Of a stretch of DNA of 64,000 bases, positions 23,561 to 36,645 are shown piece after piece. Within the stretch, counting starts at the first letter, position 1. Each line of letters starts with the position of its first letter. This DNA comes from Bdellovibrio sp. (lineage in GTDB: Bacteria > Bdellovibrionota > Bdellovibrionia > Bdellovibrionales > Bdellovibrionaceae), in NCBI GenBank assembly GCA_025359945.1, contig JANYDD010000031.1, positions 124,001-188,000 on the forward strand. Direction: 5' to 3'. The notes under the pieces are model-generated. The model was not told where the DNA came from and searched no databases. It saw nothing but the letters and a program-made list of their open reading frames with translations. The position numbers and the translations under genes are program-made.

Positions 23561-23944
23561 TTAAGTTTTTTGCCCGATCTTACTTAAGAATTCCTGGATT
23601 GTCTTTAGGTTATGATCCTGAAGCGAAGTAAAATGAAGCTCGACAATCATGTGCGTCGGCATTTCGCCTTTTCGAAAATGTTCTACCGGCTGTTGGGTTT
23701 TAATCACCCGCAGCTTTTCCTTAATCACGTAACTGGTCGTTGGAATCTGAAAAAACCCTTCGAAAACTTCGCCCAATTTATAAAATTCGTAAGGAGACTC
23801 CATCAAAAGTCCCACGACATTTAAGGTTTTGATTTTTCCTTTTCTTTTTTCTGCGGAAGGGCGCAATAACTCTAAATCGATAGGGTAGGGCGTGATCATA
23901 ATTTTTTCAGAAGAGGACTCGGAGCTTTTTTTTGCAGTCGACAT
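23561..23944 (-). CDS. PilZ-like protein lacking c-di-GMP binding residues
   Basis: 127 residues. The strand pattern GKIKTLNVVGLLMESPYEFYKLGEVFEGFFQI followed by a C-terminal helix (NLKTIQEFLSKIG) resembles the PilZ barrel. There is no RxxxR motif, and DxSxxG is degraded to NVVG, so it would not bind the nucleotide in the usual way. It overlaps the receiver gene by one base. The fold assignment is tentative. Confidence 0.65.
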   Translation of the reverse strand: MSTAKKSSESSSEKIMITPYPIDLELLRPSAEKRKGKIKTLNVVGLLMESPYEFYKLGEVFEGFFQIPTTSYVIKEKLRVIKTQQPVEHFRKGEMPTHMIVELHFTSLQDHNLKTIQEFLSKIGQKT

Positions 23945-24336
23945 TAAACCACCAGCGATCGCTTTATTTTATTCTCGCACAGTTCCACGATCTTAAATAC
24001 GTTTTCAAACGGCTTTGGCATAAACTCTAGGCTTGGCCACTGCAGACCGCTGTCCTCTATTTTCATCTCAGAAAAGGCAGAAATCAAAATAACATGCGAA
24101 CTGACTAGACCTAGTGCTTGAGCTTTTTTTAAAACCTCGAAACCATTCAAGTCAGGCATCACGATGTCCAGCACGACAAAATCGGGTTTCACCTGGGACC
24201 AAAGCTGCAGCCCCGGGATCCCGCTGTCGGCGTCAAAGACTATAAAGTGGTGGGCTTGAAATGCTTTTCGCAGGGCCCTTCGAACCAAATTTTCATCGTC
24301 GATAATAAGAACTTTTTTTTCTTTATTGTCTAACAA
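23944..24336 (-). CDS. Single-domain (CheY-like) response regulator
   Basis: 130 residues, a receiver domain only. The acidic pair is in IIDDEN, the phospho-acceptor aspartate in VLDIVMPDLNG, the Thr/Ser switch in LISAFS and the conserved lysine in MPKPF. With no output domain, it probably acts by protein contact. It overlaps the adjoining kinase gene by 14 bases, and that kinase is its likely phosphodonor. Confidence 0.92.
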   Translation of the reverse strand: MLDNKEKKVLIIDDENLVRRALRKAFQAHHFIVFDADSGIPGLQLWSQVKPDFVVLDIVMPDLNGFEVLKKAQALGLVSSHVILISAFSEMKIEDSGLQWPSLEFMPKPFENVFKIVELCENKIKRSLVV

Positions 24337-26356
24337 TTGGAAATCTCACTTCGAAGTTGGCGCCAGAACCTTCACCCGGATTCTGCGGAATTAAATTGAG
24401 CTGCCCGCCCATCTTTTGCACGATCTGCCTAGACAAACTAAGACCCAAACCCGTCCCCTGACCGTCGGATTTGGTGGTGAAAAAGGGTTCAAAAATTTTC
24501 TCCTGTAAGTGTGCCGGAACTCCGGGGCCGGTGTCTTGAATGCGTAAAATAACCTGCTGGTCTTCCCTTGAGAAAAAACTTTGGATGGTCAACCTGCCGG
24601 ATTCTTTCATCGCCTGGCAGGCATTCTGGACTAAATTGTAAACGACCTGTTGAATCAAAATCGAATCCCCGCGAAAAAAAAGTCCATTTGTTTTTAGGTC
24701 AATTTGATAACGATGATCCAACAAATTTGATTTTAAAAAGGGCAAAGTTCGCTGGACAATATCATCAAGCTCTAGCATAGAATCTTGGCCCGAGGACCCT
24801 AGACTAAAATCCATTAAATTTTTAATAATGTCTTTGCATCGAGCGCTGGCTTTCTCAATTTCTTTTAAATCTTGAACTAATTCTGGCTTGTTTTGGTTTT
24901 GCGATTGAAGGACCTGAGCTAGCGCGATCAATCCGGCAATGGGATTATTAAGCTCGTGCGACAAATTTCCCGCCATTTTTCCCATCTGACTTAGTTTTTC
25001 GGTTTGTAGAAACTTAATCTGCAAATCTTTTTGCGCCGTCATATCTACATATCGGTTTAAGAAAGACGACACTTGTCCAGATTCTGATAAAATGGGGTAC
25101 GACTGAACTTCATAAATTTTATTTTTAATTTTCACGACAGACACTTCGGTCTTTGCCGAATCCAGCGATTTTTCGACGGGGCAACCCAAACAAATTTGGT
25201 CTTTCTGAGCGAATATTTTAAAACAAGGGTAGGTCGTAAAATTTTCGGAAAACAAATTATTAGCTCGCAAAACTTGATACGTCGGATCCAAAATCGCTAA
25301 CGGGTCTTTGAAGCTATCAAAAGTCTGCTCCCACTGTTGAGCGGTTTTTTTTAGTTCTTCCTCCAGAAAAATCTTCTCAAAGGCCAATTGAATGACTTTT
25401 TGCCGTTCGATAAAATGGTCCTGCAAAAAAACAGGATTTTGCAACAAAGGTTCCGTTTCAATCAACAGGCAGGCCCGAACCAGCGAATTTTGAATTTGAA
25501 AAATCTCGATGGGCATAAAGGGCCGCGCCAAAGCATTAGCTAACTGAGTTCGTAAAAAATTTTTATCAGTAAACCAACGTTCAATTTGCTGAGGCGTAGT
25601 TTTAAACGATTTTTTTGATTCTGCCTGTGTTTGTGCATCAATCAAGTAAACTTCATTGGGATGCCCAGAGAAAATTAAAAAAGGTTCATTTTTTAGGTGA
25701 AGCTTGTGAAATTCTTTTCTAATTTGGTCGATAAATTCTTCAAATGAAAGTGTGGTGGAAAGTTCTTTAATAAACCGAATCAGCTGTCGAACTAAATTCA
25801 GTTTTTTATCTTCTTCTTCTTTGGATACTTTAATGGACGATGTCCTTTCGTCGACGATCTTTTCTAGATCCTGGTTTAACAAAGCCAGCTCTTGAAGTTG
25901 CCGCTTAGACTCCTGAAATAAAAAATTCTCTCGGTCAAGTTCTCGTTGGTAGTGAATTTCTAAGTTCATTTGCGCCAGTGTTTCTTTGGACTCAAAAGGG
26001 TAGGCCACCAAGTGCGCGGTTTTAAGCTCGTTCACAGCAGTTGCGATCAGACCTGGGTCCCAGACCCGTGCCGACACAAAAAGAAGACTTCGCGAAAAAT
26101 CAGAAGTGCTTTGTTGTCGCATTGATATCAGTTGTTGCAGCTGATCTTTTTTTAACCAGCTTAAATCAACAATGGTCACATCGGCTTTCAGTGCGGGCCA
26201 TTCCTGAATGAACTGGGCGAATTGACTGAGATGAGTGACCCTAATTTGAGGTTCAAAAATCGAAATTTCTTTAGGATCAAACGAAAATAAAACTAGGTGC
26301 GGAAGGGCCTTGTTATCAAGGTTGACTCTCTGATTTTTCTGCACTGACTCCGGCAT
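24323..26356 (-). CDS. Multi-domain sensor histidine kinase with cysteine-bearing PAS domain
   Basis: 677 residues, soluble. About 1-130 looks like a degenerate receiver (strand VTIVDLSWLKK at the phospho-site position, no clear acidic pocket). A coiled coil follows (about 135-185), then a GAF-like region (about 190-330). The PAS domain (about 340-455) carries CFKIF and CLGCP, a Cys-x(n)-CxxC cluster seen in delta-type sensor kinases and possibly a redox or metal site. HisKA has His in GNLSHELNNPIAGLI. HATPase has LVQNACQAM, DTGPGVP, FFTTK and [11 protein letters not shown]. The start follows AGGAAG and overlaps the upstream gene by 41 bases. Confidence 0.92.
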   Translation of the reverse strand: MPESVQKNQRVNLDNKALPHLVLFSFDPKEISIFEPQIRVTHLSQFAQFIQEWPALKADVTIVDLSWLKKDQLQQLISMRQQSTSDFSRSLLFVSARVWDPGLIATAVNELKTAHLVAYPFESKETLAQMNLEIHYQRELDRENFLFQESKRQLQELALLNQDLEKIVDERTSSIKVSKEEEDKKLNLVRQLIRFIKELSTTLSFEEFIDQIRKEFHKLHLKNEPFLIFSGHPNEVYLIDAQTQAESKKSFKTTPQQIERWFTDKNFLRTQLANALARPFMPIEIFQIQNSLVRACLLIETEPLLQNPVFLQDHFIERQKVIQLAFEKIFLEEELKKTAQQWEQTFDSFKDPLAILDPTYQVLRANNLFSENFTTYPCFKIFAQKDQICLGCPVEKSLDSAKTEVSVVKIKNKIYEVQSYPILSESGQVSSFLNRYVDMTAQKDLQIKFLQTEKLSQMGKMAGNLSHELNNPIAGLIALAQVLQSQNQNKPELVQDLKEIEKASARCKDIIKNLMDFSLGSSGQDSMLELDDIVQRTLPFLKSNLLDHRYQIDLKTNGLFFRGDSILIQQVVYNLVQNACQAMKESGRLTIQSFFSREDQQVILRIQDTGPGVPAHLQEKIFEPFFTTKSDGQGTGLGLSLSRQIVQKMGGQLNLIPQNPGEGSGANFEVRFPIVRQ

Positions 26357-26936
26357 GGATTCTTCCTAGGGTCTCGTTCCATTTTTGCAGACCATGTGCT
26401 AGATCGTACTCCAGAATTTCAGAAAGCAGAACAAAATCTTTCTTTTCGAAGGCTGCTAAAAGTTGTTGGATGGTTTCGGTCATATGAAGACTATTCGACG
26501 CCCAAAAGGTTTTAGTCTCGAGATCTTGAATCAGTGTTTTTTCGATCGCCATCAAACAGTCGGTTAACGATGAACAAGAATCCACTAGATCAACAAAATT
26601 TTTAAGCTGCCCTTCAGGGCCGTCAAATTTCATTTTTTTAGATAAGCTATCCACTTGCACAATTAAAAAGGGAAGCTCGTGCAACCAACCTTCAATAACG
26701 GCTGGCAACAGCTGATCCGGGGCTTCGGCCAGAACTTCTAGTTGATTGATGTCGGACACTTTTAGGTCTGAAAATTCGACTTCTTGCTTTTCATTCAGAC
26801 TTAACCCGTTCAGTTTAAACTGACAGACAACCAAACCATCTTGCTCGAATTTTTTTTCGAGTTCACGCTTAAGCCCACCAAAAGAAGGCGAAGAAAATTC
26901 ATTCTTGAGTTCTTCCTGAGAGAATATTGCTTTCAT
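26316..26936 (-). CDS. Helical protein of unknown function
   Basis: 206 residues from ATG 26936, which follows AGGAG; a TTG one codon upstream is less likely. No signal peptide. An N-terminal beta-like part (about 30-65) precedes a long helical part, resembling in general shape a small chaperone or adaptor. It overlaps both the glycosyltransferase gene upstream (38 bases) and the kinase gene downstream (41 bases). Its place between glycosyltransferases and a signalling pair suggests a link, but no motif supports one. Confidence 0.7.
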   Translation of the reverse strand: MKAIFSQEELKNEFSSPSFGGLKRELEKKFEQDGLVVCQFKLNGLSLNEKQEVEFSDLKVSDINQLEVLAEAPDQLLPAVIEGWLHELPFLIVQVDSLSKKMKFDGPEGQLKNFVDLVDSCSSLTDCLMAIEKTLIQDLETKTFWASNSLHMTETIQQLLAAFEKKDFVLLSEILEYDLAHGLQKWNETLGRIHAGVSAEKSESQP

Positions 26937-28371
26937 CAAGCACTCCTGGCGTTTCGGCGGTTTCAGACCAATGGTACTTCGTTAAATAATTCTGCAGTTG
27001 CTGGTGTCGCTTGAAGGTCTCGGCCAAAAGTTTCAACAGCTGATCAAAGTCCGTTGGCGCAATTCGAGATCTTTCGGTCATCAGCCAGTCCGTAATCGGG
27101 CTTAAACTGGGAACAATCTGAGAAATTTTACCAAAAGCTGCATCAGCGGCGTCAAGCAGATGTTTGTGATTGTCCAGGTCGGTTTGATTTTTTATTTGAG
27201 CCAAAAACTCTAGAACCATATCGTTCACCATTTGAAGCTTTTCAATTCCTTCTAGTGCCGTTGGCGACAGCGGAACCACATGTGGCAATTGAAAGTATAA
27301 CGAACAGATTAAACTCCAGGCTTCGTCCTCTTCACTAGAAGTTAGGCCATGATACGCATTGGTTTCTGGATCAATGGAATAACACTTTATCCCTGGTACC
27401 AAATTGAGCGCGCATTTTTTTATTTCAGAGACAACTTCTTCCAAATCCACCGCACCCTGAGCGCGATAAACTATCGAACCTGGCGCTTTCGGTCCAGACT
27501 CCCAGAAACGCACGCTTGAGAAGCTTAAATTAAAAGATTTCTTTTGCAAAAGATTCGCCACCTGCAACAAAGAGCTATCAGGCCCGATAAAAAGATCGGC
27601 TCCGTCAATGATTTGAAAAACATCATCCAAATTAGTCTCTCCGACTAAAACTCTTAACCTTGAATTTAGCCGTGGGTGCTGTGGCAACGACTTGATCACT
27701 TCTCTTTCGGTTCCCAAAACCACCAGCTGCTGGGGAACTTGGTCCAGTAATTTCTCGACAAAACTTCCCCATTCTTTCGCTGAGAGATTTTTTTGCGATT
27801 GGCTAGCGCCGATATGCAAAGCAAAATAAGCCTGGAATTGATAGGGCGACGGGGCAAGCCGCTGATAGTAAAAATCCGATGGAGTTAGTTCGACCTGAAG
27901 AAAGTTGGCGTAAAATTCAATCATGTGAATGCGATTCCATTTATGGATTCCCATCTGAGCGTAAAAATAAGCGCTCCAGTCATCGTTAAATTGCAAAGAT
28001 AAATCAGGATGCCGCGACAAGCCCCGACATTGAGCGACCCTAAGGTATCCTGCAATGGATGCCGAAAGCGGCGAAAAAGTCAGGTTAATCAATTGATCAA
28101 AATTTTGTCCTTGAAGGTCGCTCAGGAAACTTTTTAAAGTTTTCAGAACGGGCTGAAAATTTTTAGTAACGATAAATTCTTCGACGCAGCTTTCGGTGGG
28201 AAGCGGATGAATGGTGACCGGAAATCCCAGTCCTGCAAACGCACCTTGAAATTTCTTTCGAGTCAAAAAATGTATTTCTGCTGCCGGATGCAAACGTGCA
28301 AAGGCTCGAAGCGCCGGCCACGATTGATAAATATCACCTATTCGGGCTAGACTGATGATTAAAATTTTCAT
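26899..28371 (-). CDS. GT9-family (heptosyltransferase-like) glycosyltransferase, copy B
   Basis: 490 residues from ATG 28371, which follows AGGAG; a TTG upstream is the alternative. It has a GT-B fold of the ADP-heptose:LPS heptosyltransferase family. The N-terminal Rossmann start MKILIISLARIGDIYQSWPAL and the GT9 nucleotide-sugar region (LHIGASQSQKNLSAKEWG and later IDGADLFIGPDSSLLQVANLL) are clear. About 130 extra C-terminal residues are helical and not part of the family core. The target could be LPS, but the context favours a protein or flagellar target. Confidence 0.85.
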   Translation of the reverse strand: MKILIISLARIGDIYQSWPALRAFARLHPAAEIHFLTRKKFQGAFAGLGFPVTIHPLPTESCVEEFIVTKNFQPVLKTLKSFLSDLQGQNFDQLINLTFSPLSASIAGYLRVAQCRGLSRHPDLSLQFNDDWSAYFYAQMGIHKWNRIHMIEFYANFLQVELTPSDFYYQRLAPSPYQFQAYFALHIGASQSQKNLSAKEWGSFVEKLLDQVPQQLVVLGTEREVIKSLPQHPRLNSRLRVLVGETNLDDVFQIIDGADLFIGPDSSLLQVANLLQKKSFNLSFSSVRFWESGPKAPGSIVYRAQGAVDLEEVVSEIKKCALNLVPGIKCYSIDPETNAYHGLTSSEEDEAWSLICSLYFQLPHVVPLSPTALEGIEKLQMVNDMVLEFLAQIKNQTDLDNHKHLLDAADAAFGKISQIVPSLSPITDWLMTERSRIAPTDFDQLLKLLAETFKRHQQLQNYLTKYHWSETAETPGVLDESNILSGRTQE

Positions 28372-28519
28372 GAGGTATCTGCTCCTGCGCAAGTTCGGTT
28401 AAAATTTTTAAAGCCAGTAGATCTTGAAGATCAGGATTTTCTGATTTCAAAATGGCCGTCGTCTGAATTTGAAGTTCGCTGACCAGCTGACGCATGTATT
28501 TTTCTAAATCGATAGCCAT
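28334..28519 (-). CDS. 61-residue helical protein between two glycosyltransferases
   Basis: I chose ATG 28519 because of a good AAGGA site eight bases upstream. The product is acidic and helical (DLEKYMRQLVSELQIQTTAIL, then LQDLLALKILTELAQEQIP). The gene overlaps both flanking glycosyltransferase genes (16 and 38 bases), so it is translated with them. Possibly an adaptor or stabilising peptide; no family recognised. Confidence 0.6.
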   Translation of the reverse strand: MAIDLEKYMRQLVSELQIQTTAILKSENPDLQDLLALKILTELAQEQIPHENFNHQSSPNR

Positions 28520-29880
28520 GAGATTTCCTTTCCAACAAGGTTCAGATGCGATTGCAATGAGTTGGACAATTGCCCAATTAGTGATTCTTGCAATTGAAGC
28601 CTGGATTCCCACGAGCTGCCTTGAAAGTCTGATGCTTTTTGAAAAACTTGAAATGCTTGAATCCAGGTTTGGTTAAAATTGTGATTTTGTCGCGTTTGAA
28701 GCCCATCTAGATCTTTTTGAAGATCCTGGATCATATCATGGCACTGTTGGTGCGATAGTGAAAGATCCAAAAGGTCTTTAGCGTCGATAGGTTTTTCATC
28801 CAAAAAGTGGGCCCAAGTTCTTTGTGCCAGTTTTTGTTGTAAGACCGAATTTGCACTGGCGTTGGTCTCGCGAAGAAAAAACTCACCCTGATTGCTTTCG
28901 ACAACAAATAAATTAAAACCAGCTCGCGGTCGATTCAAAGTCTGATTTAAAATAAAGCTTTCGATCGCCAAGACTAAATCTGCCCTTGAAAAACTTTGCT
29001 CGCACAAATGCGATGCCTTGGGACACGTTTGATGATGATCGCAAGGGTAACAGGACACCGTCGACGTCATCACTTGGGATTCCAACAAGTATGGCGCAGA
29101 TTTCATGGCATTTGCACTGCCTAAAAAAATTCCAAAAGTAGGTACCTTTTTCTTGGCCGCAAGATGTAGCACACTAGTGTCCAAGCTCACCAAGGCATCA
29201 AATTGATCGATCCGCGATTCTAAGGTCGGCCAATCCCAGCTGACAATTTTTTCATCAGGAAACATTTGCTCGCATTTTTCTTTATCTTCGGGCGCAGTTA
29301 AAATGGAAATTTCAAGATGAGGTTGGCGATGGAAAAGTTCCTTGATCATTTGACGCCATTCAGTAAGCTCCATATTTTTCTTGGGGTCACTGCTGGTGAC
29401 TTGAAAAAGAATTTTTCGCTTGATCCTAGTTTGCATCGCAGCCATTAGCATTGGAGGATTTTTACCCGCGGCTCTGGCAATCAATGACAGCCCGTGAAAA
29501 ACTGGCGACGCCTGCGCTCCCAAATACAGATCTAAATATGGAAGCCAGGGATTTTTTTCATGGGACGCAGAATCCTGCACAAGGCTTACGACCGCTCTGG
29601 ACAGATGGGTGTGCGAGGCATCGATCACGCGATCAAATCCTAATTTTTTAAGGAATTGAATTTCACGCTCAAGCACAACGAAGGCGTGCATCCAGTTGTA
29701 ATTTTTTTCCACCAAAATTTTTTGCAGTCTTCTGCGAGAAAAAAAATACATTCGCGGGTGATGTTTCAGCTGCGGATAAAAAAGATCATTAACTAAAAAA
29801 TGCGTGTTTTCATCTTCAAACGCCTGTTGATGTTGAATAAAATCACCCAGTCGAAGTAAGGACAAAACCAGCGTCTTCAT
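28504..29880 (-). CDS. GT9-family (heptosyltransferase-like) glycosyltransferase, copy A
   Basis: 458 residues. Start MKTLVLSLLRLGDFIQ, central FQVTSSDPKKNMELTEWRQMI, and the acceptor-side motif LVSLDTSVLHLAAKKKVPTFGIFLG are GT9 features. It carries a short cysteine cluster (CYPCDHHQTCPKASHLC, about 278-294) and a helical C-terminal extension of about 140 residues. ATGA overlap with the Maf-like gene upstream. It is paired with copy B, suggesting two sequential sugar transfers. Confidence 0.85.
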   Translation of the reverse strand: MKTLVLSLLRLGDFIQHQQAFEDENTHFLVNDLFYPQLKHHPRMYFFSRRRLQKILVEKNYNWMHAFVVLEREIQFLKKLGFDRVIDASHTHLSRAVVSLVQDSASHEKNPWLPYLDLYLGAQASPVFHGLSLIARAAGKNPPMLMAAMQTRIKRKILFQVTSSDPKKNMELTEWRQMIKELFHRQPHLEISILTAPEDKEKCEQMFPDEKIVSWDWPTLESRIDQFDALVSLDTSVLHLAAKKKVPTFGIFLGSANAMKSAPYLLESQVMTSTVSCYPCDHHQTCPKASHLCEQSFSRADLVLAIESFILNQTLNRPRAGFNLFVVESNQGEFFLRETNASANSVLQQKLAQRTWAHFLDEKPIDAKDLLDLSLSHQQCHDMIQDLQKDLDGLQTRQNHNFNQTWIQAFQVFQKASDFQGSSWESRLQLQESLIGQLSNSLQSHLNLVGKEISWLSI

Positions 29881-30518
29881 TGCGTTAGCTCTTTCAGAAT
29901 TTTAAAATAAAAATCTTCTCGAGATTTATTTTGGTGAAGTAAAATACTTTTTAATTGAAAATCTTCAGAAGACAAAAGTGTCGGTGCGCTGGCCAAAAAA
30001 GAATCTAATTCCAACATTTTTAGATTTCGTGCGACCGTCCTTGATTCGCTGGCTTTTAAACCAGCTAGACTAAGCCACAATTGGAAATATTGCTTTTCAA
30101 AAAGTGCCCATGCGGGCTTAAATGGCATGACAATATAGTCTAAATCCTGCGCGCTCTTAACTCGTGATGAAAATTGAAAATCGGGTTTAATCGCAATAAT
30201 TTCTACCGACGCAGGGATTGAATTTACACTTAAAGTGTCGCGAATTGTCTGTTGATCAAACTCAAGAACCGTAATTTTCTTCCACAAATTGGCTTGCGCT
30301 GCTGCAATAACATGATGGGCAGCTCCCAACCCCAGAATGTAAGCCTGCTTTGAAACTGACTGGGTTTGATCTTTGTTATCTTTGTTATCTTTGTTATCTT
30401 TGTGATCCTTGTGATCCGTAAATTCAAGTTTTACAAATGGCGCAAGCCAGGTCTGGGCTTCGCGAGCAGGATCCCTTGGCGAACACAACAGACGACCCTT
30501 CCTATTCATAAAAGTCAT
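29877..30518 (-). CDS. Rossmann-type protein resembling the N-terminal domain of Maf (motility accessory factor)
   Basis: 213 residues. After a short N-terminal part there is a low-complexity DHKDHKDNKDN linker (about 36-51) encoded by 9-base tandem repeats. A nucleotide-binding fold follows, beginning YILGLGAAHHVIAAAQ and KKITVLEFD. The Gly-Leu-Gly loop followed by an acidic strand end matches SAM-dependent methyltransferases and the N-terminal domain of Maf proteins, which glycosylate flagellin. The large catalytic MptE-like domain of full Maf is absent. ATGA overlaps on both sides. Confidence 0.6.
   Translation of the reverse strand: MTFMNRKGRLLCSPRDPAREAQTWLAPFVKLEFTDHKDHKDNKDNKDNKDQTQSVSKQAYILGLGAAHHVIAAAQANLWKKITVLEFDQQTIRDTLSVNSIPASVEIIAIKPDFQFSSRVKSAQDLDYIVMPFKPAWALFEKQYFQLWLSLAGLKASESRTVARNLKMLELDSFLASAPTLLSSEDFQLKSILLHQNKSREDFYFKILKELTQ
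30371..30415. repeat. Five 9-base tandem repeats inside the Maf-like gene
   Basis: Five consecutive copies of CTTTGTTAT with small variations (last two CTTTGTGAT and CCTTGTGAT). A unit of nine keeps the reading frame, so copy-number changes would only lengthen or shorten the Asp-His/Asn-Lys linker. Confidence 0.85.
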
Positions 30519-31465
30519 GTCAGACCCAGCATCTGTTGGACGCGTTGAAGTTCTGGATCCCGAGGCCGAAACAGAAGTTCCTTTTCAAGCTCGACGCGGG
30601 CCAAATCTGATTGGTGAGTTAAATGATAAAGCTGAATCATTACCAGATTTATATCACCATCGTCCCAAACGATTTTTTGATAAGCTTCACAAGCATTCAG
30701 TACCCGTTCGTAGACTCTTTCAGTCACGCCAATTTGAATGTACATCTGCAGCGCCGTTTTGTTTCTTGGACAAATTTCCAGAGCTTGTTGAAGATGCGCT
30801 AGGCACAAATTCAAATCGTGTTCATGATGCGAAATTAGTGCTAAACCCACCCACGCCTTGTCATTATTTGAATTAAGATGAATCGCCTTTTGAAAGTTTT
30901 CACGGGCCATGACGAAATTGTTTTTCTGAATTTCCAGTGTGCCTAAATTCACCCACAAATGGTCAGAATCGGCGTTCAAAGTCAGCGCCTTATGATAAAA
31001 TTCTTCCGAGGATTCGAAATCTTTTTCTTTAAGAAAAATATTACCCAAATTTTTATAAATTTCAAAAAGCTCGGGGGGATTAAAAGGCATTTGATTGATT
31101 GCAAAAAAATAGGCTTCTTTTGCGGGCTGATCTTGATGGTGTATGTAGAGGTCGTGGGCCCAAGCAATTAGATCGTTGATCTGGGGATTATTCTCGGCCA
31201 AATATTTCAGAACGGAGGTTCGTTCGTTTTTGAGGTTTAGCTTTTCCATGACTTCAGAAAGTAAATAATAAAGTTCACGGCGGTGTGATTTATCCTGCAA
31301 GGCCTTGAGTAGAAGTTGAAGGCCCAACGCGTACTCTTGATTTTTGATTAACGTTTTCGCATTAAAGATTAAAACGGAAAGGTGATCTTCTTTTTTCGGA
31401 CTGGAATTTTGGCTTTGGTTCTTAGGCTCGTGGATGGCATCTGGACTAAAATCTATAGATTGCAT
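30515..31465 (-). CDS. TPR-repeat protein heading the glycosyltransferase operon
   Basis: 316 residues with about seven tetratricopeptide repeats (for example AYFFAINQMPFNPPELFEI, YHKALTLNADSDHLWVNLGTLE, FQKAIHLNSNNDKAWVGLALIS). There is no signal peptide. TPR proteins often feed substrates to glycosyltransferases. The start follows GCGAGG, and a sigma-54 promoter lies about 36 bases upstream. ATGA overlap with the Maf-like gene. Confidence 0.85.
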   Translation of the reverse strand: MQSIDFSPDAIHEPKNQSQNSSPKKEDHLSVLIFNAKTLIKNQEYALGLQLLLKALQDKSHRRELYYLLSEVMEKLNLKNERTSVLKYLAENNPQINDLIAWAHDLYIHHQDQPAKEAYFFAINQMPFNPPELFEIYKNLGNIFLKEKDFESSEEFYHKALTLNADSDHLWVNLGTLEIQKNNFVMARENFQKAIHLNSNNDKAWVGLALISHHEHDLNLCLAHLQQALEICPRNKTALQMYIQIGVTERVYERVLNACEAYQKIVWDDGDINLVMIQLYHLTHQSDLARVELEKELLFRPRDPELQRVQQMLGLT

Positions 31466-31500
31466 ATCAGAAAACCTCGCTGTTACTTAAATGGTAAGAC

Positions 31501-31516
31501 AGCAAGAGAAATGCCA
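31501..31516 (-). promoter_or_regulatory. Sigma-54 promoter of the TPR/glycosyltransferase operon
   Basis: Minus strand TGGCATTTCTCTTGCT. The -24 GG and -12 GC are exactly ten bases apart, and 10 of the 11 specified positions of TGGCAC-N5-TTGCW match. The predicted transcription start near 31489 leaves a 24-base leader before ATG 31465. Confidence 0.8.
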
Positions 31517-31622: not shown

Positions 31623-32813
31623 TTAGTCTAGCGCCAGTTTTTTCAGATCATCCAATTTTTGTTGGACGTCCAAAGGAATTCGCGTGCCGGAACTTCCAGT
31701 GTAACCCATATAAAGCGATTCTTCGAGTTTTTGATAGCACTTCTTAGCCCAGGCGCTGTGGGCAGTTTGGCGAATACAAGACTCGTAATAATTTTCATGA
31801 AGATTAAATATTGAAAGGTCACGAACGGATTCGTAAGAAACTCCGACCATGTATAAAGCTTCGCCCAAATTATTGGCATCTAACTTTTGTGCCAAAATCG
31901 CGTGAAGGTCTGAAAGTGCGCGCATAAAATAAACGTCTCCACCACGATCGCCCAAACCCTGCTGAAGATCCCGACCTTTTTGAACTAAAATTTTTGCCCG
32001 TTTCATTTTCTCAGCAGTATTTTTTGGCGCTTTTGCTTTTTTTTCGCTCTTCCACTCTTTGATGGCCTTGTTCCAACTTTGTGCGCTTTGTTTCAGATAA
32101 AATGGCGTCTGTGAGGAATCCAGAATTTTTTGAATCACTTTCAACGACAGTTCGGGATCTTTTAAAAACTTAATGGTGATCGAAAGACTGTAGCGGACGG
32201 CCTTGTCTAAGTCCATCAGCAAAAAATCTTTCGGTTTTGAAATCACCATTTCAAACTGCGCCAAAGCAGGCTGAAATTGGCGAGTCGCTAACAAGAACTC
32301 TCCCCGCTCGATGGCTTTCATATTCTTTAACGTTGATTCTATTTCTGGCGAATTAAATTCTGGACCTTGGTTGGTGCGGGTATGGCATTCTATGCAATAG
32401 GAAGTGGCATTGATCAATAAATAGCGGGCGTATTCTTTCTTCGAAGCCGTAAAACTTTCTTGGGCGCGCTTTAAATCATCGGTGAAACCATTCGAAAGAA
32501 ATCGCAGACTAGGATCAGACCGAATCATCATCGAATGGTTGGCCAATTGTTTCGAGGCTTCAGTTAAATTGGACAATGAGGTTTTAATTTTTTCTTCGTT
32601 GCCAGACTGACTAAATTTTTCCGAATTCAAGACCAACGGAAAAATTTCAACCAAGTTATTTTTGAACGACTGCATCGAGTGTTGAAAGCTTGCAGGGGTA
32701 GGATCGGCGTTCTTTTTGGCCGAATGGGTGTCTTCCGATTTGGAATGGCAGCTGGCTAAAAACAAAAATCCGCAACCTAAAAGCAATTTGAACGAAGACG
32801 GAAATGATTCCAT
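31623..32813 (-). CDS. Lipoprotein with one c-type heme motif (cytochrome c'-like)
   Basis: 396 residues. Signal peptide with lipobox LASC (Cys22). An N-terminal helical bundle (about 45-150) ends with the heme-attachment motif Cys140-Ile-Glu-Cys143-His144, the layout of cytochrome c'/c556 domains where CXXCH lies in the last helix. The remaining 240 residues are helical and TPR-like. The start follows AGGAGA. It lies between flagellar chaperone genes and the glycosylation operon on the same strand. Electron transfer, gas sensing or a structural heme are all possible. Confidence 0.8.
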   Translation of the reverse strand: MESFPSSFKLLLGCGFLFLASCHSKSEDTHSAKKNADPTPASFQHSMQSFKNNLVEIFPLVLNSEKFSQSGNEEKIKTSLSNLTEASKQLANHSMMIRSDPSLRFLSNGFTDDLKRAQESFTASKKEYARYLLINATSYCIECHTRTNQGPEFNSPEIESTLKNMKAIERGEFLLATRQFQPALAQFEMVISKPKDFLLMDLDKAVRYSLSITIKFLKDPELSLKVIQKILDSSQTPFYLKQSAQSWNKAIKEWKSEKKAKAPKNTAEKMKRAKILVQKGRDLQQGLGDRGGDVYFMRALSDLHAILAQKLDANNLGEALYMVGVSYESVRDLSIFNLHENYYESCIRQTAHSAWAKKCYQKLEESLYMGYTGSSGTRIPLDVQQKLDDLKKLALD

Positions 32814-32885: not shown

Positions 32886-33305
32886 TTACACTTTTTCGTC
32901 TAAGTTTTTATGAAACAAGGGAGACTTGTATTTTCCGAAAATCTCTTTGGTTTTTTTCACGTCTTGAAGCTCTCGGATAATTTTGGTTTTGATTTCTTCG
33001 ATCTGCCCAAGAATTCGCAAGTCTTGATCTAAAATCCTGCGGACGTATTCGTCTTTAATTTCTAAGAGATTTTTGACCTCTAGCCGTGTCTGGGGGGTGG
33101 GCGAACGATCCAAAGAGTTTTGTTCTTCAGTGATTTCACGAGAAATGTAATTAATCACGTCCAGGATATTTTCACGTAACGAATAAAATTCATCGATATT
33201 CGAAAACTGATTCAGCGGAATTTTTTCCAGCTGCTGTTCATTCAGTGAGTAAAATTTCTCTAGATAGTGAACTTTCTGCTGCAGTAACTCGATGATTCTT
33301 TCCAT
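32886..33305 (-). CDS. FliT/FlgN-like flagellar chaperone
   Basis: 139 residues from ATG 33305, which follows GGAGGGG; an upstream start would overlap fliS and lacks a ribosome site. All-helical and acidic/basic alternating (ERIIELLQQKVHYLEKFYSLNEQQL, then KDEYVRRILDQDLRILGQIEEIK), with a pattern like FlgN/FliT export chaperones. Its position right after fliD-fliS is where fliT normally sits. Assignment rests mainly on position and helicity. Confidence 0.7.
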   Translation of the reverse strand: MERIIELLQQKVHYLEKFYSLNEQQLEKIPLNQFSNIDEFYSLRENILDVINYISREITEEQNSLDRSPTPQTRLEVKNLLEIKDEYVRRILDQDLRILGQIEEIKTKIIRELQDVKKTKEIFGKYKSPLFHKNLDEKV

Positions 33306-33336
33306 AACCCCTCCATAGGTAGTCTTGCGGCCGCGA

Positions 33337-33735
33337 TCAGCCAGCTTTTTTTTCTGTTTCGCCTTTTTTAATTTTTTCAACTGCCTGGACCCATCCATCG
33401 TAGAGAGTCTCAAGAAGTTTCAAATTCGTTTTCAAGGGTTCCGGTGAACCTGAAATATTTGCTTTAGTAAATTGTTCGGTCATAAACATATAAAGCTGTT
33501 CTAGGTTTTTGGCGATTTCGCCGCCCACATTGTGGTCTAGGGTGTTGTTTAGCTCTAGGACTATGTCGAAAGCTCGACCTATGTTGATACATCGTTCAGA
33601 TACATTTTTTTCTTCGGCGGCTTTAATTCCTCGCCTAGTGAATTTAATCGCGCCTTCATACATCATCAAAAGAAGTTTCTCGCGGCTAGCGCTGGTGACT
33701 TGAGTTTGTTTGTACTTTTGATACGGATGATTCAT
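33337..33735 (-). CDS. fliS: Flagellar export chaperone FliS
   Basis: 132 residues. It binds the flagellin C-terminus and keeps it unfolded for export. Typical start YQKYKQTQVTSASREKLLLMMYEGAIKFTRRG, the conserved IGRAFDIVLELNNTLD and YMFMTEQFTKANI are present. Between fliD and the FliT-like gene, all on the minus strand. Confidence 0.95.
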   Translation of the reverse strand: MNHPYQKYKQTQVTSASREKLLLMMYEGAIKFTRRGIKAAEEKNVSERCINIGRAFDIVLELNNTLDHNVGGEIAKNLEQLYMFMTEQFTKANISGSPEPLKTNLKLLETLYDGWVQAVEKIKKGETEKKAG

Positions 33736-33785: not shown

Positions 33786-35168
33786 TTATCCCTGACCACC
33801 CTTGCCCTGTGGGGTTGCGATTCCGCCTAAAGCAGCACCCTGTGACTGCAGTTGCGACATTTTGCTTTCTAAATTAGAGAATTGAGTCCTGAGCGATTCT
33901 TCCCGTTTGGTCAGCTGGCGTTCTTTGTTGTCGATCTGTTTGTTGATATTATCGACCTTTTGTTGGATGCCTCGCTTGCGAGTGGCCAAAGGTCCAAAAG
34001 CATTGTTGGTCAGCGCACTGATTTCTCGTTTCACCGCCGACACAAAACCGGTGTTAAAACCGTCGCCTCGAAAAAAATTAGACACCGACTGCGGATCGCC
34101 AGTTAACTGAGCGTTAAATTTATCTTGATTAAAATTCAGTGTTCCGTTTCGGGTGAACTCGACGCCCAATTGGTTCATCTGACTGACCGAGCCTTCGACT
34201 CCGTACTGAGGATTTTGAATTAAACGACGAAAGCGACTTTCGATACTGCGCAAAATGCTGTCGCCACCCATTGGGCCCAAATGCTCTTTTCCGGATTTAT
34301 CTTTTTGAAGCTTGTGCTGATTCTGAATAAAACTAAGAACTGCGTTATAAGCTTCGACGAAAGATTTAATTTTTCCCGATATGACTTCCTGATCCTCTTT
34401 GACCGACAAATAAATTTCTCGGCCAGGCGCTGCTTGTTTAAGCTCTAAAACCATCCCTGGAATTAAATCTTTAATTTTATTTTCTGGGGTCTCAAGTTCA
34501 AAACCATCAAGCTTAATGATTGCATTCTGTGCCGGCTTTTTTTGATCAAAATAAAAATCATCGTCACCATCTAAAAGATAGACTGTGGGAAATTCCACTT
34601 GTTTATCATCACCGGTGGCAAGTCCCGTGACCATCAGTTTAAACGGAGTTTCCTTATCGCGCCGGTCGTTAATAACTAAAGCGCGCAGACCTAAATTGGA
34701 CTTATTAATCGTCTGAGCCACTCCATCTAATGTTGAATTGTCGCCATTAATATAAACTTCTTTCATACCGTCGGGAGTTTTAAATTTGATGTAGCCAACA
34801 CCCATTTCCGTGCGATCGCGATCGGCATATCCATTGGATATCGCGCCCGGTTTTTGCGCTAATTGCTTCACTTCGACTTGCCATTCGCCGCTGATAACGG
34901 TGTTAGGATCGACAGTTCCGTTAATCACACTGGGATCACCACTGACGACTTTTGTGTTTGTAAATCCGCGCGTTCCGACAAGTTCGCCGATGGGTTTATT
35001 GATTTCATTGACTTTAGTTTCTAAATCAGTGACCAGCTTAAGCTTGTCGTCTTCGGCAGCTTTTTTGGTTTCCATTTGCTTCACGGGAACGCGTTCGGCT
35101 TCCATAATTTGGTCGACGATATTAGACGGTAAACCTGAAGCCATTCCCGAGAATCGGATTGCACCCAT
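33786..35168 (-). CDS. fliD: Flagellar filament cap protein FliD
   Basis: 460 residues. It caps the filament and guides flagellin polymerisation. N-terminal FSGMASGLPSNIVDQIMEAERVPV with the FliD_N coiled-coil region, a central variable part, and the C-terminal FliD_C domain with YNAVLSFIQNQ and a terminal coiled coil (QLTKREESLRTQFSNLESKMSQLQ). Slightly shorter than enteric FliD. It lies 124 bases after flaG and is probably co-transcribed. Confidence 0.95.
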   Translation of the reverse strand: MGAIRFSGMASGLPSNIVDQIMEAERVPVKQMETKKAAEDDKLKLVTDLETKVNEINKPIGELVGTRGFTNTKVVSGDPSVINGTVDPNTVISGEWQVEVKQLAQKPGAISNGYADRDRTEMGVGYIKFKTPDGMKEVYINGDNSTLDGVAQTINKSNLGLRALVINDRRDKETPFKLMVTGLATGDDKQVEFPTVYLLDGDDDFYFDQKKPAQNAIIKLDGFELETPENKIKDLIPGMVLELKQAAPGREIYLSVKEDQEVISGKIKSFVEAYNAVLSFIQNQHKLQKDKSGKEHLGPMGGDSILRSIESRFRRLIQNPQYGVEGSVSQMNQLGVEFTRNGTLNFNQDKFNAQLTGDPQSVSNFFRGDGFNTGFVSAVKREISALTNNAFGPLATRKRGIQQKVDNINKQIDNKERQLTKREESLRTQFSNLESKMSQLQSQGAALGGIATPQGKGGQG

Positions 35169-35292: not shown

Positions 35293-35664
35293 CTATGCGG
35301 CTTTCGACAGGAGTTGGCCTTTTTGGCCTTCGGGTTTGACGAGATCCCAAAGCTCAAGCTCGGGAGCGCGACGTATGACTTTACCCAAGTGATCTTTGAT
35401 GATGACGAATTTTTTGTTATCAATCGTCACCAGTTCCACTTGTAGATTTTGATTTTTCACAACTTCTAAATTTTTTAAGTGATCTAAAGCGACCTGCAGT
35501 TCTTCAGGTGTCATTGGATTTTTTTTCTTCTGCTGCTCGCTCGAAGACTGTTGTCCATTGGCGTCTCGGTCTGTGGCCGAGTCCGACTTAATGGCTTTTT
35601 CAACAGGTTTTTTGGGCTTCAGATTCATGGGTAGAACTGATACCAAAACATTTTTTATATCCAT
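35293..35664 (-). CDS. flaG: FlaG-family flagellar protein
   Basis: 123 residues. A charged, Ser/Gln-rich N-terminal part (about 14-50) and a C-terminal beta domain (LQVELVTIDNKKFVIIKDHLGKVIRRAP) typical of FlaG, which influences filament length and is usually next to fliD, as here. A FliA-type promoter lies only seven bases before the ATG, so the message may be leaderless or the true start may be Met13. Confidence 0.8.
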   Translation of the reverse strand: MDIKNVLVSVLPMNLKPKKPVEKAIKSDSATDRDANGQQSSSEQQKKKNPMTPEELQVALDHLKNLEVVKNQNLQVELVTIDNKKFVIIKDHLGKVIRRAPELELWDLVKPEGQKGQLLSKAA

Positions 35665-35671
35665 AACTTTA

Positions 35672-35699
35672 AGATCGGCTTGATCTCTTTTGAACTTAA
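35672..35699 (-). promoter_or_regulatory. FliA (sigma-28)-type promoter of flaG-fliD-fliS
   Basis: Minus strand TTAAGTTC (35699-35692), 12-base spacer, GCCGATCT (35679-35672). The -35 box is identical, and the -10 box differs by one base, to the promoter at 5758-5784. The predicted start coincides with the flaG ATG at 35664. Confidence 0.6.
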
Positions 35700-35811: not shown

Positions 35812-36645
35812 TTAATTTAAAAGTTTAAGTGCTAGACCCGGCTGTTGGTTGGCCTGTGCCAAGACCGAAGTCGAAGCCTGCAACAGAACGTTGTTTCTTG
35901 CAAATTCTGAAGAGCTTGCCGCGATGTCAGCATCACGGATTCGAGAATTTGCAGCGGACAAGTTTTCGTTCTGCACAGCTAAGTTATCAACGGTCGATTG
36001 AAATCGATTTTGAAGAGCTCCAATGTTGGCGCGAAATCCGCCCACTTTGGCTTGCGCTTCATCGACTACAGACAAGGACTCTTGCGCCCCTTCTTTTGTC
36101 GAGAAATCCATACCGCTAATTCCTAACTCGTCGCTAGTTGCATTCAATTGTGAAGAGTCGAAAGAAATTCGATCTTCAAAGTCGTTGTTGTTAATGCCCA
36201 CTTGAATATCATATTTAGAACCTTGCCCGTTCAGAAGAGACTGATTTCCAAATCTGGTAGTTCTTGCGATCCGCTCTGATTCGTCTTTTAATTGCTGAGC
36301 CTCGATGTTGATGTAGCCACGTTCGCGTTCACCCACGGTGTCTGACGCTGCTTGAATTCCAAGCTCGCGCAGTCGAGTCATAATATTAGAAATTTCGCTT
36401 AATCCACCCTCAGCGACTTGCACTAAAGAGATTCCATCGTTCGCATTTCGTGATGCCTGGCCCAAACTTCGGATCTGAGATTTTAAGTTCTCACTGATCC
36501 CCAAACCAGCGGCATCGTCCGAAGACGTTACGATCCGCGATCCAGACGACAACTGAGCCGAGGATTTTTGAATCATCCTTTGCGATGTTGTCAGAGTTCG
36601 TTGCGCAGCGATTGACTGCAGATTGGTAGAAATACGTAGTCCCAT
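35812..36645 (-). CDS. Flagellin 2
   Basis: 277 residues, a paralogue of flagellin 1 with the same length. D0/D1 motifs MGLRISTNLQSIAAQR, QRMIQKSSAQLSSGSRI, DDAAGLGISENLKSQIR and NANDGISLVQVAEGGL are conserved, as is the C-terminal NSRIRDADIAASSSEFARNNVLLQA. The ribosome site is strong (AGGAGG, eight bases before ATG). It stands next to flaG-fliD-fliS and is preceded by a long leader region. Bdellovibrio-type filaments use several flagellins, which fits two divergent copies. Confidence 0.96.
   Translation of the reverse strand: MGLRISTNLQSIAAQRTLTTSQRMIQKSSAQLSSGSRIVTSSDDAAGLGISENLKSQIRSLGQASRNANDGISLVQVAEGGLSEISNIMTRLRELGIQAASDTVGERERGYINIEAQQLKDESERIARTTRFGNQSLLNGQGSKYDIQVGINNNDFEDRISFDSSQLNATSDELGISGMDFSTKEGAQESLSVVDEAQAKVGGFRANIGALQNRFQSTVDNLAVQNENLSAANSRIRDADIAASSSEFARNNVLLQASTSVLAQANQQPGLALKLLN

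Follow-up and report, generated by a model that had tools for sequence, protein, structure and literature searches.

An operon of overlapping genes on the − strand of a 64-kb stretch of Bdellovibrio DNA (contig JANYDD010000031.1, positions 124,001 to 188,000; hereafter the window, numbered from its first letter) on balance probably encodes machinery dedicated to O-glycosylating a flagellar protein in the cytoplasm, with flagellin the most probable acceptor. The operon contains genes for a tetratricopeptide repeat (TPR) protein, a Rossmann protein termed MafN, two glycosyltransferases (GTs) of the GT9 family (GT1 and GT2), a 61-amino acid (aa) open reading frame (ORF) and a protein termed P207. 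The source organism belongs to the Bdellovibrio family, where it forms its own genus (g1) within the set searched. The promoter and genes are as follows.

31501–31516, − strand: sigma-54 (−24/−12) promoter TGGCATTTCTCTTGCT; exact match, just upstream of the TPR start codon
30515–31465, − strand: TPR protein, 316 aa; Pfam TPR_1, E 4e-18; in all 68 order-level loci
29877–30518, − strand: MafN, Rossmann protein, 213 aa; structure model with a predicted local distance difference test score (pLDDT) of 78; hhalign match to Maf
28504–29880, − strand: GT1, GT9-family glycosyltransferase, 458 aa; PF01075, 30.2 bits (cut-off 22)
28334–28519, − strand: small ORF, 61 aa; overlaps GT1 (3′ end) and GT2 (5′ end); kept in 49 of 51 loci
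26899–28371, − strand: GT2, GT9-family glycosyltransferase, 490 aa; PF01075, 38.4 bits (cut-off 22)
26316–26936, − strand: P207; structure model, pLDDT 92; conserved beside GT2
24323–26356, − strand: histidine kinase (HK); HATPase_c and HisKA; same overlapping run, syntenic
23944–24336, − strand: receiver-only response regulator (RR), from its translation; same run, syntenic

Downstream of the sigma-54 site the run comprises TPR, MafN, GT1, the 61-aa ORF, GT2, P207, HK, the receiver and a gene of unknown function (23944–23561), all of which touch or overlap. A first-pass annotation of the window had called a TPR protein, a Rossmann protein and two GT9 enzymes flanking a 61-residue ORF in overlapping frames, and these genes were found where it placed them. 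It had overlooked one conserved gene, P207 (26936–26316), which lies in the same overlapping run and is followed by the histidine kinase and the response regulator. The C-terminal extensions that it had described for both GT9 proteins are also present, the extension being conserved in GT2 and variable or missing in some orthologs of GT1. The window copies of MafN, the small ORF and P207 gave no Pfam match by themselves.

As judged from gene order, the operon is a real and old unit that recurs across the order and, in parts, across the phylum Bdellovibrionota. The order fliD-fliS-fliT-(lipoprotein)-TPR-MafN-GT1-GT2-P207-HK-RR-rsmD-coaD-aat was found in nearly every complete family locus read, with single genes occasionally undetected. 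Named bacterial and archaeal genomes were scanned with short peptide patterns, the sensitivity of which is limited outside the phylum. The 63 loci recovered show conserved gene order and come almost entirely from records with names such as Bdellovibrio, Bdellovibrionales or Bdellovibrionaceae; a single record is titled Streptomyces griseus, evidently a mislabelled metagenome-assembled genome. Module composition was counted in 68 order-level stretches, in which some genomes are represented twice. TPR was present in 68 of 68, MafN and GT1 were either both present (50) or both absent (18) and never found singly, and GT2 occurred without the MafN-GT1 pair in 8. The all-or-none inheritance of MafN and GT1, together with these 8 occurrences of GT2, points to a core of GT2 with TPR to which MafN-GT1 is an optional pair. 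The block recurs in variant forms in other families of the phylum, among them f25, f12 and f14. The f25 loci contain TPR and a longer GT9, often with P207, and are devoid of MafN and GT1; in most of those read, GT2 and TPR occur with no HK detected.

Among the genomes searched, GT2 is confined to those with FliD. The same 325 genomes of the phylum were searched twice, for GT2 (match threshold E ≤ 1e-35) and for FliD, and GT2 was found in 175 of 288 FliD-positive genomes versus 0 of 37 FliD-negative genomes (Fisher p 2.5e-14, uncorrected for kinship); 20 of these 37 are listed by name, and 17 are inferred as missing from the listed matches. Retention of the operon in non-flagellated relatives, which the first-pass annotation had named as one observation that would refute its proposal, was checked in this way and did not occur. 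Within family f9 alone, GT2 was present in 23 of 25 FliD-positive versus 0 of 16 FliD-negative genomes, and because other GT9 genes are retained in 6 of the latter 16, the absence of GT2 is not merely a loss of all GT9 genes. The converse fails, with many flagellated genomes devoid of GT2, particularly those of genus g17.

The sequence TGGCATTTCTCTTGCT is the sole exact match to TGGCAY-N5-TTGCW in the 64-kb window. With one mismatch allowed, 3 matches were found versus 4.6 expected, which is chance level, so a single sigma-54-like site in 64 kb proves nothing alone. That a sigma-54 promoter heads the operon, as had been proposed, is borne out by conservation and not by the single-site match: of 53 orthologous loci from named genomes, 49 have a strong site where the TPR gene starts, versus 0 of 675 equal windows taken from 15 other genes of the same loci. 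When narrower windows were used, the site was found at the TPR gene in 14 of 19. The distance from site to start codon varies, probably since some start codons have been computed too far upstream. Sigma-28-like sites were found at fliC (10 of 31) and flaG (10 of 38) and at hardly any other genes, and the window contains one, with one mismatch, at 35673–35699, just upstream of flaG. In B. bacteriovorus, FliA has been described as the main sigma factor of the attack phase (PMC3627812). With the GT operon under sigma-54 and flagellin and flaG carrying sigma-28-like sites, the enzymes could be made ahead of their substrate. The flagellin/flaG/fliD/fliS block was confirmed on the same strand as the operon, at 36645–33337, and the genes from the operon to flagellin are listed below.

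31623–32813: putative lipoprotein, 396 aa, between fliT and the operon; in some genera only
32886–33357, − strand: small protein at the fliT position, after fliS; conserved position
33337–33735, − strand: fliS (flagellin chaperone); syntenic with the operon in complete family loci
33786–35168, − strand: fliD (filament cap); FliD_N match, E 1.2e-14
35293–35664, − strand: flaG; sigma-28-like site just upstream
35812–36645, − strand: flagellin, 277 aa, 29.6 kDa

Profiles of GT1 and GT2 align to WaaC from residue 1, and WaaC and WaaF are their best solved relatives; the nearest NCBIfam model is heptosyltransferase I, which both proteins match far below its cut-off. Residues D13, S190, K194 and D265 of GT2 are invariant in 19 of 19 aligned orthologs, and the GT1 family keeps the WaaC-type D13, the T/S-D-x-K-K-N-W stretch and D-T-S-x-x-H. 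In the D-S-x-x-x-H motif, the window copy of GT2 carries Gln in place of the His present in most orthologs. We take the conserved residues of both proteins to serve the donor-site functions of WaaC, and a predicted glycosyltransferase chemistry is supported by their conservation. Five further GT9 genes are present elsewhere in the window genome. HldD scored above cut-off in all 53 family genomes examined. The window genome (~96% complete) yielded no true NeuB, its match to the NeuB superfamily being weak (E 2e-10 versus ~1e-90 for a true NeuB). These two observations disfavour a nonulosonic acid as donor, and ADP-heptose or a similar ADP-sugar is probably the one used. GT1 contains a Cys cluster, C-x2-C-x5-C-x6-C, that looks like the iron finger of TibC, but similar clusters occur in other GT9 proteins of the genome, and the likeness is probably not specific. 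The GT1 of genome G003 (L061, 6696–8204) is without the Cys cluster that most orthologs have.

The structure model of MafN is a Rossmann fold of moderate confidence (pLDDT 78). Its description as Maf-like is fair at most for the N-terminal Rossmann domain: the comparison with this domain of true Mafs by hhalign gave 82% (E 1e-5), against 0.4% in the profile comparison with RsmD. No Pfam match to the Maf catalytic domain PF01973 (MptE-like) was found in MafN or any ortholog scanned. Eight of 20 MafN orthologs weakly match PF20157, two operon members being above its cut-off, and the methyltransferase model Methyltransf_25 matches 12 of the 20. Among solved structures its fold is closest to spermidine synthases and S-adenosylmethionine methyltransferases, with Z scores of ~8–9, a range in which common arrangements also score, and MafN may be a methyltransferase. 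The Maf structure 5mu5 is absent from the structural matches listed for MafN and ranked lowest when profiles were searched (E 2.1), but the two may still be kin. At 30369–30416, MafN contains five copies of a 9-bp repeat that keep the frame and encode a KDNKDN stretch not present in aligned orthologs.

The small ORF is a separate reading frame in 49 of 51 loci, and its profile matches 102 loci, some without GT1. As it is found at loci without GT1 and is gone together with GT2 in genus g17, it belongs with GT2. The ORF ends within the conserved start of GT2, and part of the conservation of its last residues stems from this overlap; the motif L..LE.....i..TqGYt.e.ekikmLiELikEQ precedes the overlap, and its conservation is not due to GT2. 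The predicted product is a conserved microprotein of ~60 aa tied to GT2. P207 was modelled with high confidence (pLDDT 92) as a small alpha/beta N-terminal part followed by a four-helix bundle. Searches for the identity of this fold returned generic four-helix bundles only, among which a FliS-flagellin entry at E 0.15 means little.

The flagellar glycosylation that had been suggested from the window is partly upheld, namely in its flagellar link (synteny with fliD and fliS, the conserved sigma-54 site and the absence of GT2 from genomes without FliD) and in the conserved catalytic residues; the protein target is one that we infer. The TPR part of FlmG binds flagellin and is required for flagellin glycosylation (PMC7591256), TibC is a WaaC-like protein heptosyltransferase (PMC4358343), and heptosylated sites have been reported in the flagellin of enterotoxigenic Escherichia coli (ETEC; PMC5000012). 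The fliS/fliT neighbourhood, the FlmG precedent and the heptosylation of ETEC flagellin favour flagellin, which would most probably be the acceptor, with the sheath as a rival. In the mechanism proposed, the TPR protein would hold unexported flagellin, making it a candidate adaptor for the flagellar acceptor, and GT2, aided by the 61-aa microprotein and P207, would attach the first sugar, with ADP-heptose or a similar ADP-sugar as the probable donor. The MafN-GT1 pair, where present, would extend or vary this sugar, MafN acting as a recognition or Rossmann partner, since it was found to have no catalytic domain of the Maf type.

Several observations weigh against this mechanism. The f12 loci contain MafN, two GT9s, P207, HK and RR, and no TPR is detectable in them despite the GTs; the f14 loci contain TPR and P207 without any GT. 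Genus g17 (14 genomes, 10 loci read) has kept flagellar genes and lost MafN, GT1, GT2, P207 and the small ORF, and is, as far as gene content tells, a natural deletion of the GT module in a clade with flagellar genes. When the flagellins of g17 were compared with those of other loci (14 versus 48), 1 Ser/Thr position was lost and 9 were gained; with no loss of Ser/Thr, the comparison yielded no glycosylation-site signature and no candidate sites. The flagellins of B. bacteriovorus 109J, of 274–282 residues, run at 29–31 kDa, each having been assigned to one spot on two-dimensional gels (PMC2791853), and the mass computed for typical genus g4 flagellins of 274–277 residues is ~28.6–29.3 kDa. 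As flagellins run near their predicted size, any modification would be of roughly 2 kDa or less. FliC5 and FliC6, both of 277 aa, run 2 kDa apart (PMC2791853), which could be due to modification or to gel behaviour. These masses would accommodate a small neutral glycan but not heavy glycosylation.

The flagella of Bdellovibrio are sheathed, and a difference between the lipopolysaccharide (LPS) of the sheath and that of the outer membrane has been reported (PMC7175336). As GT9 enzymes of known function are mostly builders of the LPS core, with WaaC and WaaF the best solved relatives here, the GT9 pair may instead decorate a lipid-linked glycan, either LPS core or a sheath-specific LPS. We consider this rather unlikely, because the GT genes travel with fliD, fliS and fliT and not with LPS genes, five other GT9 genes are found elsewhere in the genome, the reported sheath difference is in fatty acids and not in sugars (PMC7175336), and the TPR and Maf-N-like partners point to a protein acceptor. 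The closest conserved neighbours of the operon are fliD-fliS-fliT, flagellin genes vary in position and orientation, and the loss of the module in g17 left no signature in flagellin, all of which would fit modification of another flagellar protein, such as the FliD cap, the hook, FlaG or a secreted regulator. Such an acceptor is improbable, given that fliS encodes a flagellin chaperone and that the TPR- or Maf-containing flagellar glycosylation systems discussed in PMC7591256 act on flagellin.

Catalysis itself may be questioned, since TPR is present in all order-level loci and in g17 (L140–L147, L157, L158) is retained directly beside the HK-RR pair after GT loss, and since Gln replaces the usual His of D-S-x-x-x-H in the window GT2. 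TPR-HK-RR could then be a flagellar checkpoint regulator, with the GT genes as passengers or enzymatically dead. The invariance of the catalytic Asp, Ser/Thr, Lys and Asp positions in aligned orthologs, and the f25 loci in which GT2 and TPR occur without a detected HK, make this very improbable.

If the operon glycosylates a flagellar protein as proposed, it would have in common with FlmG of Caulobacter crescentus the combination of a TPR part with a flagellin-linked GT-B glycosyltransferase, and the logic of cytoplasmic O-glycosylation (PMC7591256). In FlmG the TPR is fused to the GT domain, whereas here they are separate genes in the loci read; in addition, the operon GT is of the GT9 type, two GTs are accompanied by MafN, P207 and the microprotein, and the search of the window genome for a true nonulosonic acid gene (NeuB) found none. 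TibC/BAHT is likewise a GT-B enzyme with a WaaC-like core and puts heptose on protein Ser/Thr (PMC4358343), but has an N-terminal beta-barrel, which GT1 and GT2, with their GT9 core from residue 1, are without; the Cys cluster of GT1 that recalls the four-Cys iron finger of TibC/BAHT is common among the GT9s of the genome and thus probably no specific iron finger. WaaC and WaaF share the fold and donor-site residues of GT1 and GT2, which differ from them in their C-terminal extensions, flagellar gene context and sigma-54 promoter. Maf glycosyltransferases have the Rossmann N-terminal domain that MafN resembles, and in the phylum both are found beside fliD/fliS, but the MptE-like catalytic PF01973 is not found in MafN. 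In family f27 (L192, L193, L195, L196), full-length Maf proteins with PF01973 adjoin flagellin-fliD-fliS, where the GT9 module otherwise sits, and the GT9 module was not found in this family. One chromosomal neighbourhood thus seems to house either a Maf or a GT9 system, and this indirectly supports a role in modifying flagellin. A GNAT acetyltransferase is also found beside flagellin-fliD-fliS in L192, and a PseB-like gene (named from sequence) adjoins another f27 Maf.

More tentatively, the Bdellovibrionota may possess their own GT9 machine for flagellin heptosylation, composed of a separate TPR adaptor, two GT9s, a Maf-N-like partner, a microprotein and a four-helix protein, switched by sigma-54 before flagellin is made; in some lineages Maf would have taken its place. 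The papers searched contained no account of glycosylated flagellin in Bdellovibrio. If true, an old flagellar operon conserved over much of the phylum would gain a function, a GT9 with a separate adaptor would represent a new type of flagellin-modifying enzyme, and an unannotated microprotein family would be tied to a flagellin-modifying operon. As the operon is also present in genus g4 genomes, the records of which are named Bdellovibrio, the proposal is testable in a laboratory predator, and genus g17 offers a natural loss for comparison.

Beyond the last gene of the overlapping run (23944–23561) lie rsmD, coaD and an aminotransferase gene. The histidine kinase and receiver-only regulator (23944–26356) are conserved in the run, and the kinase might belong to flagellar sigma-54 control.

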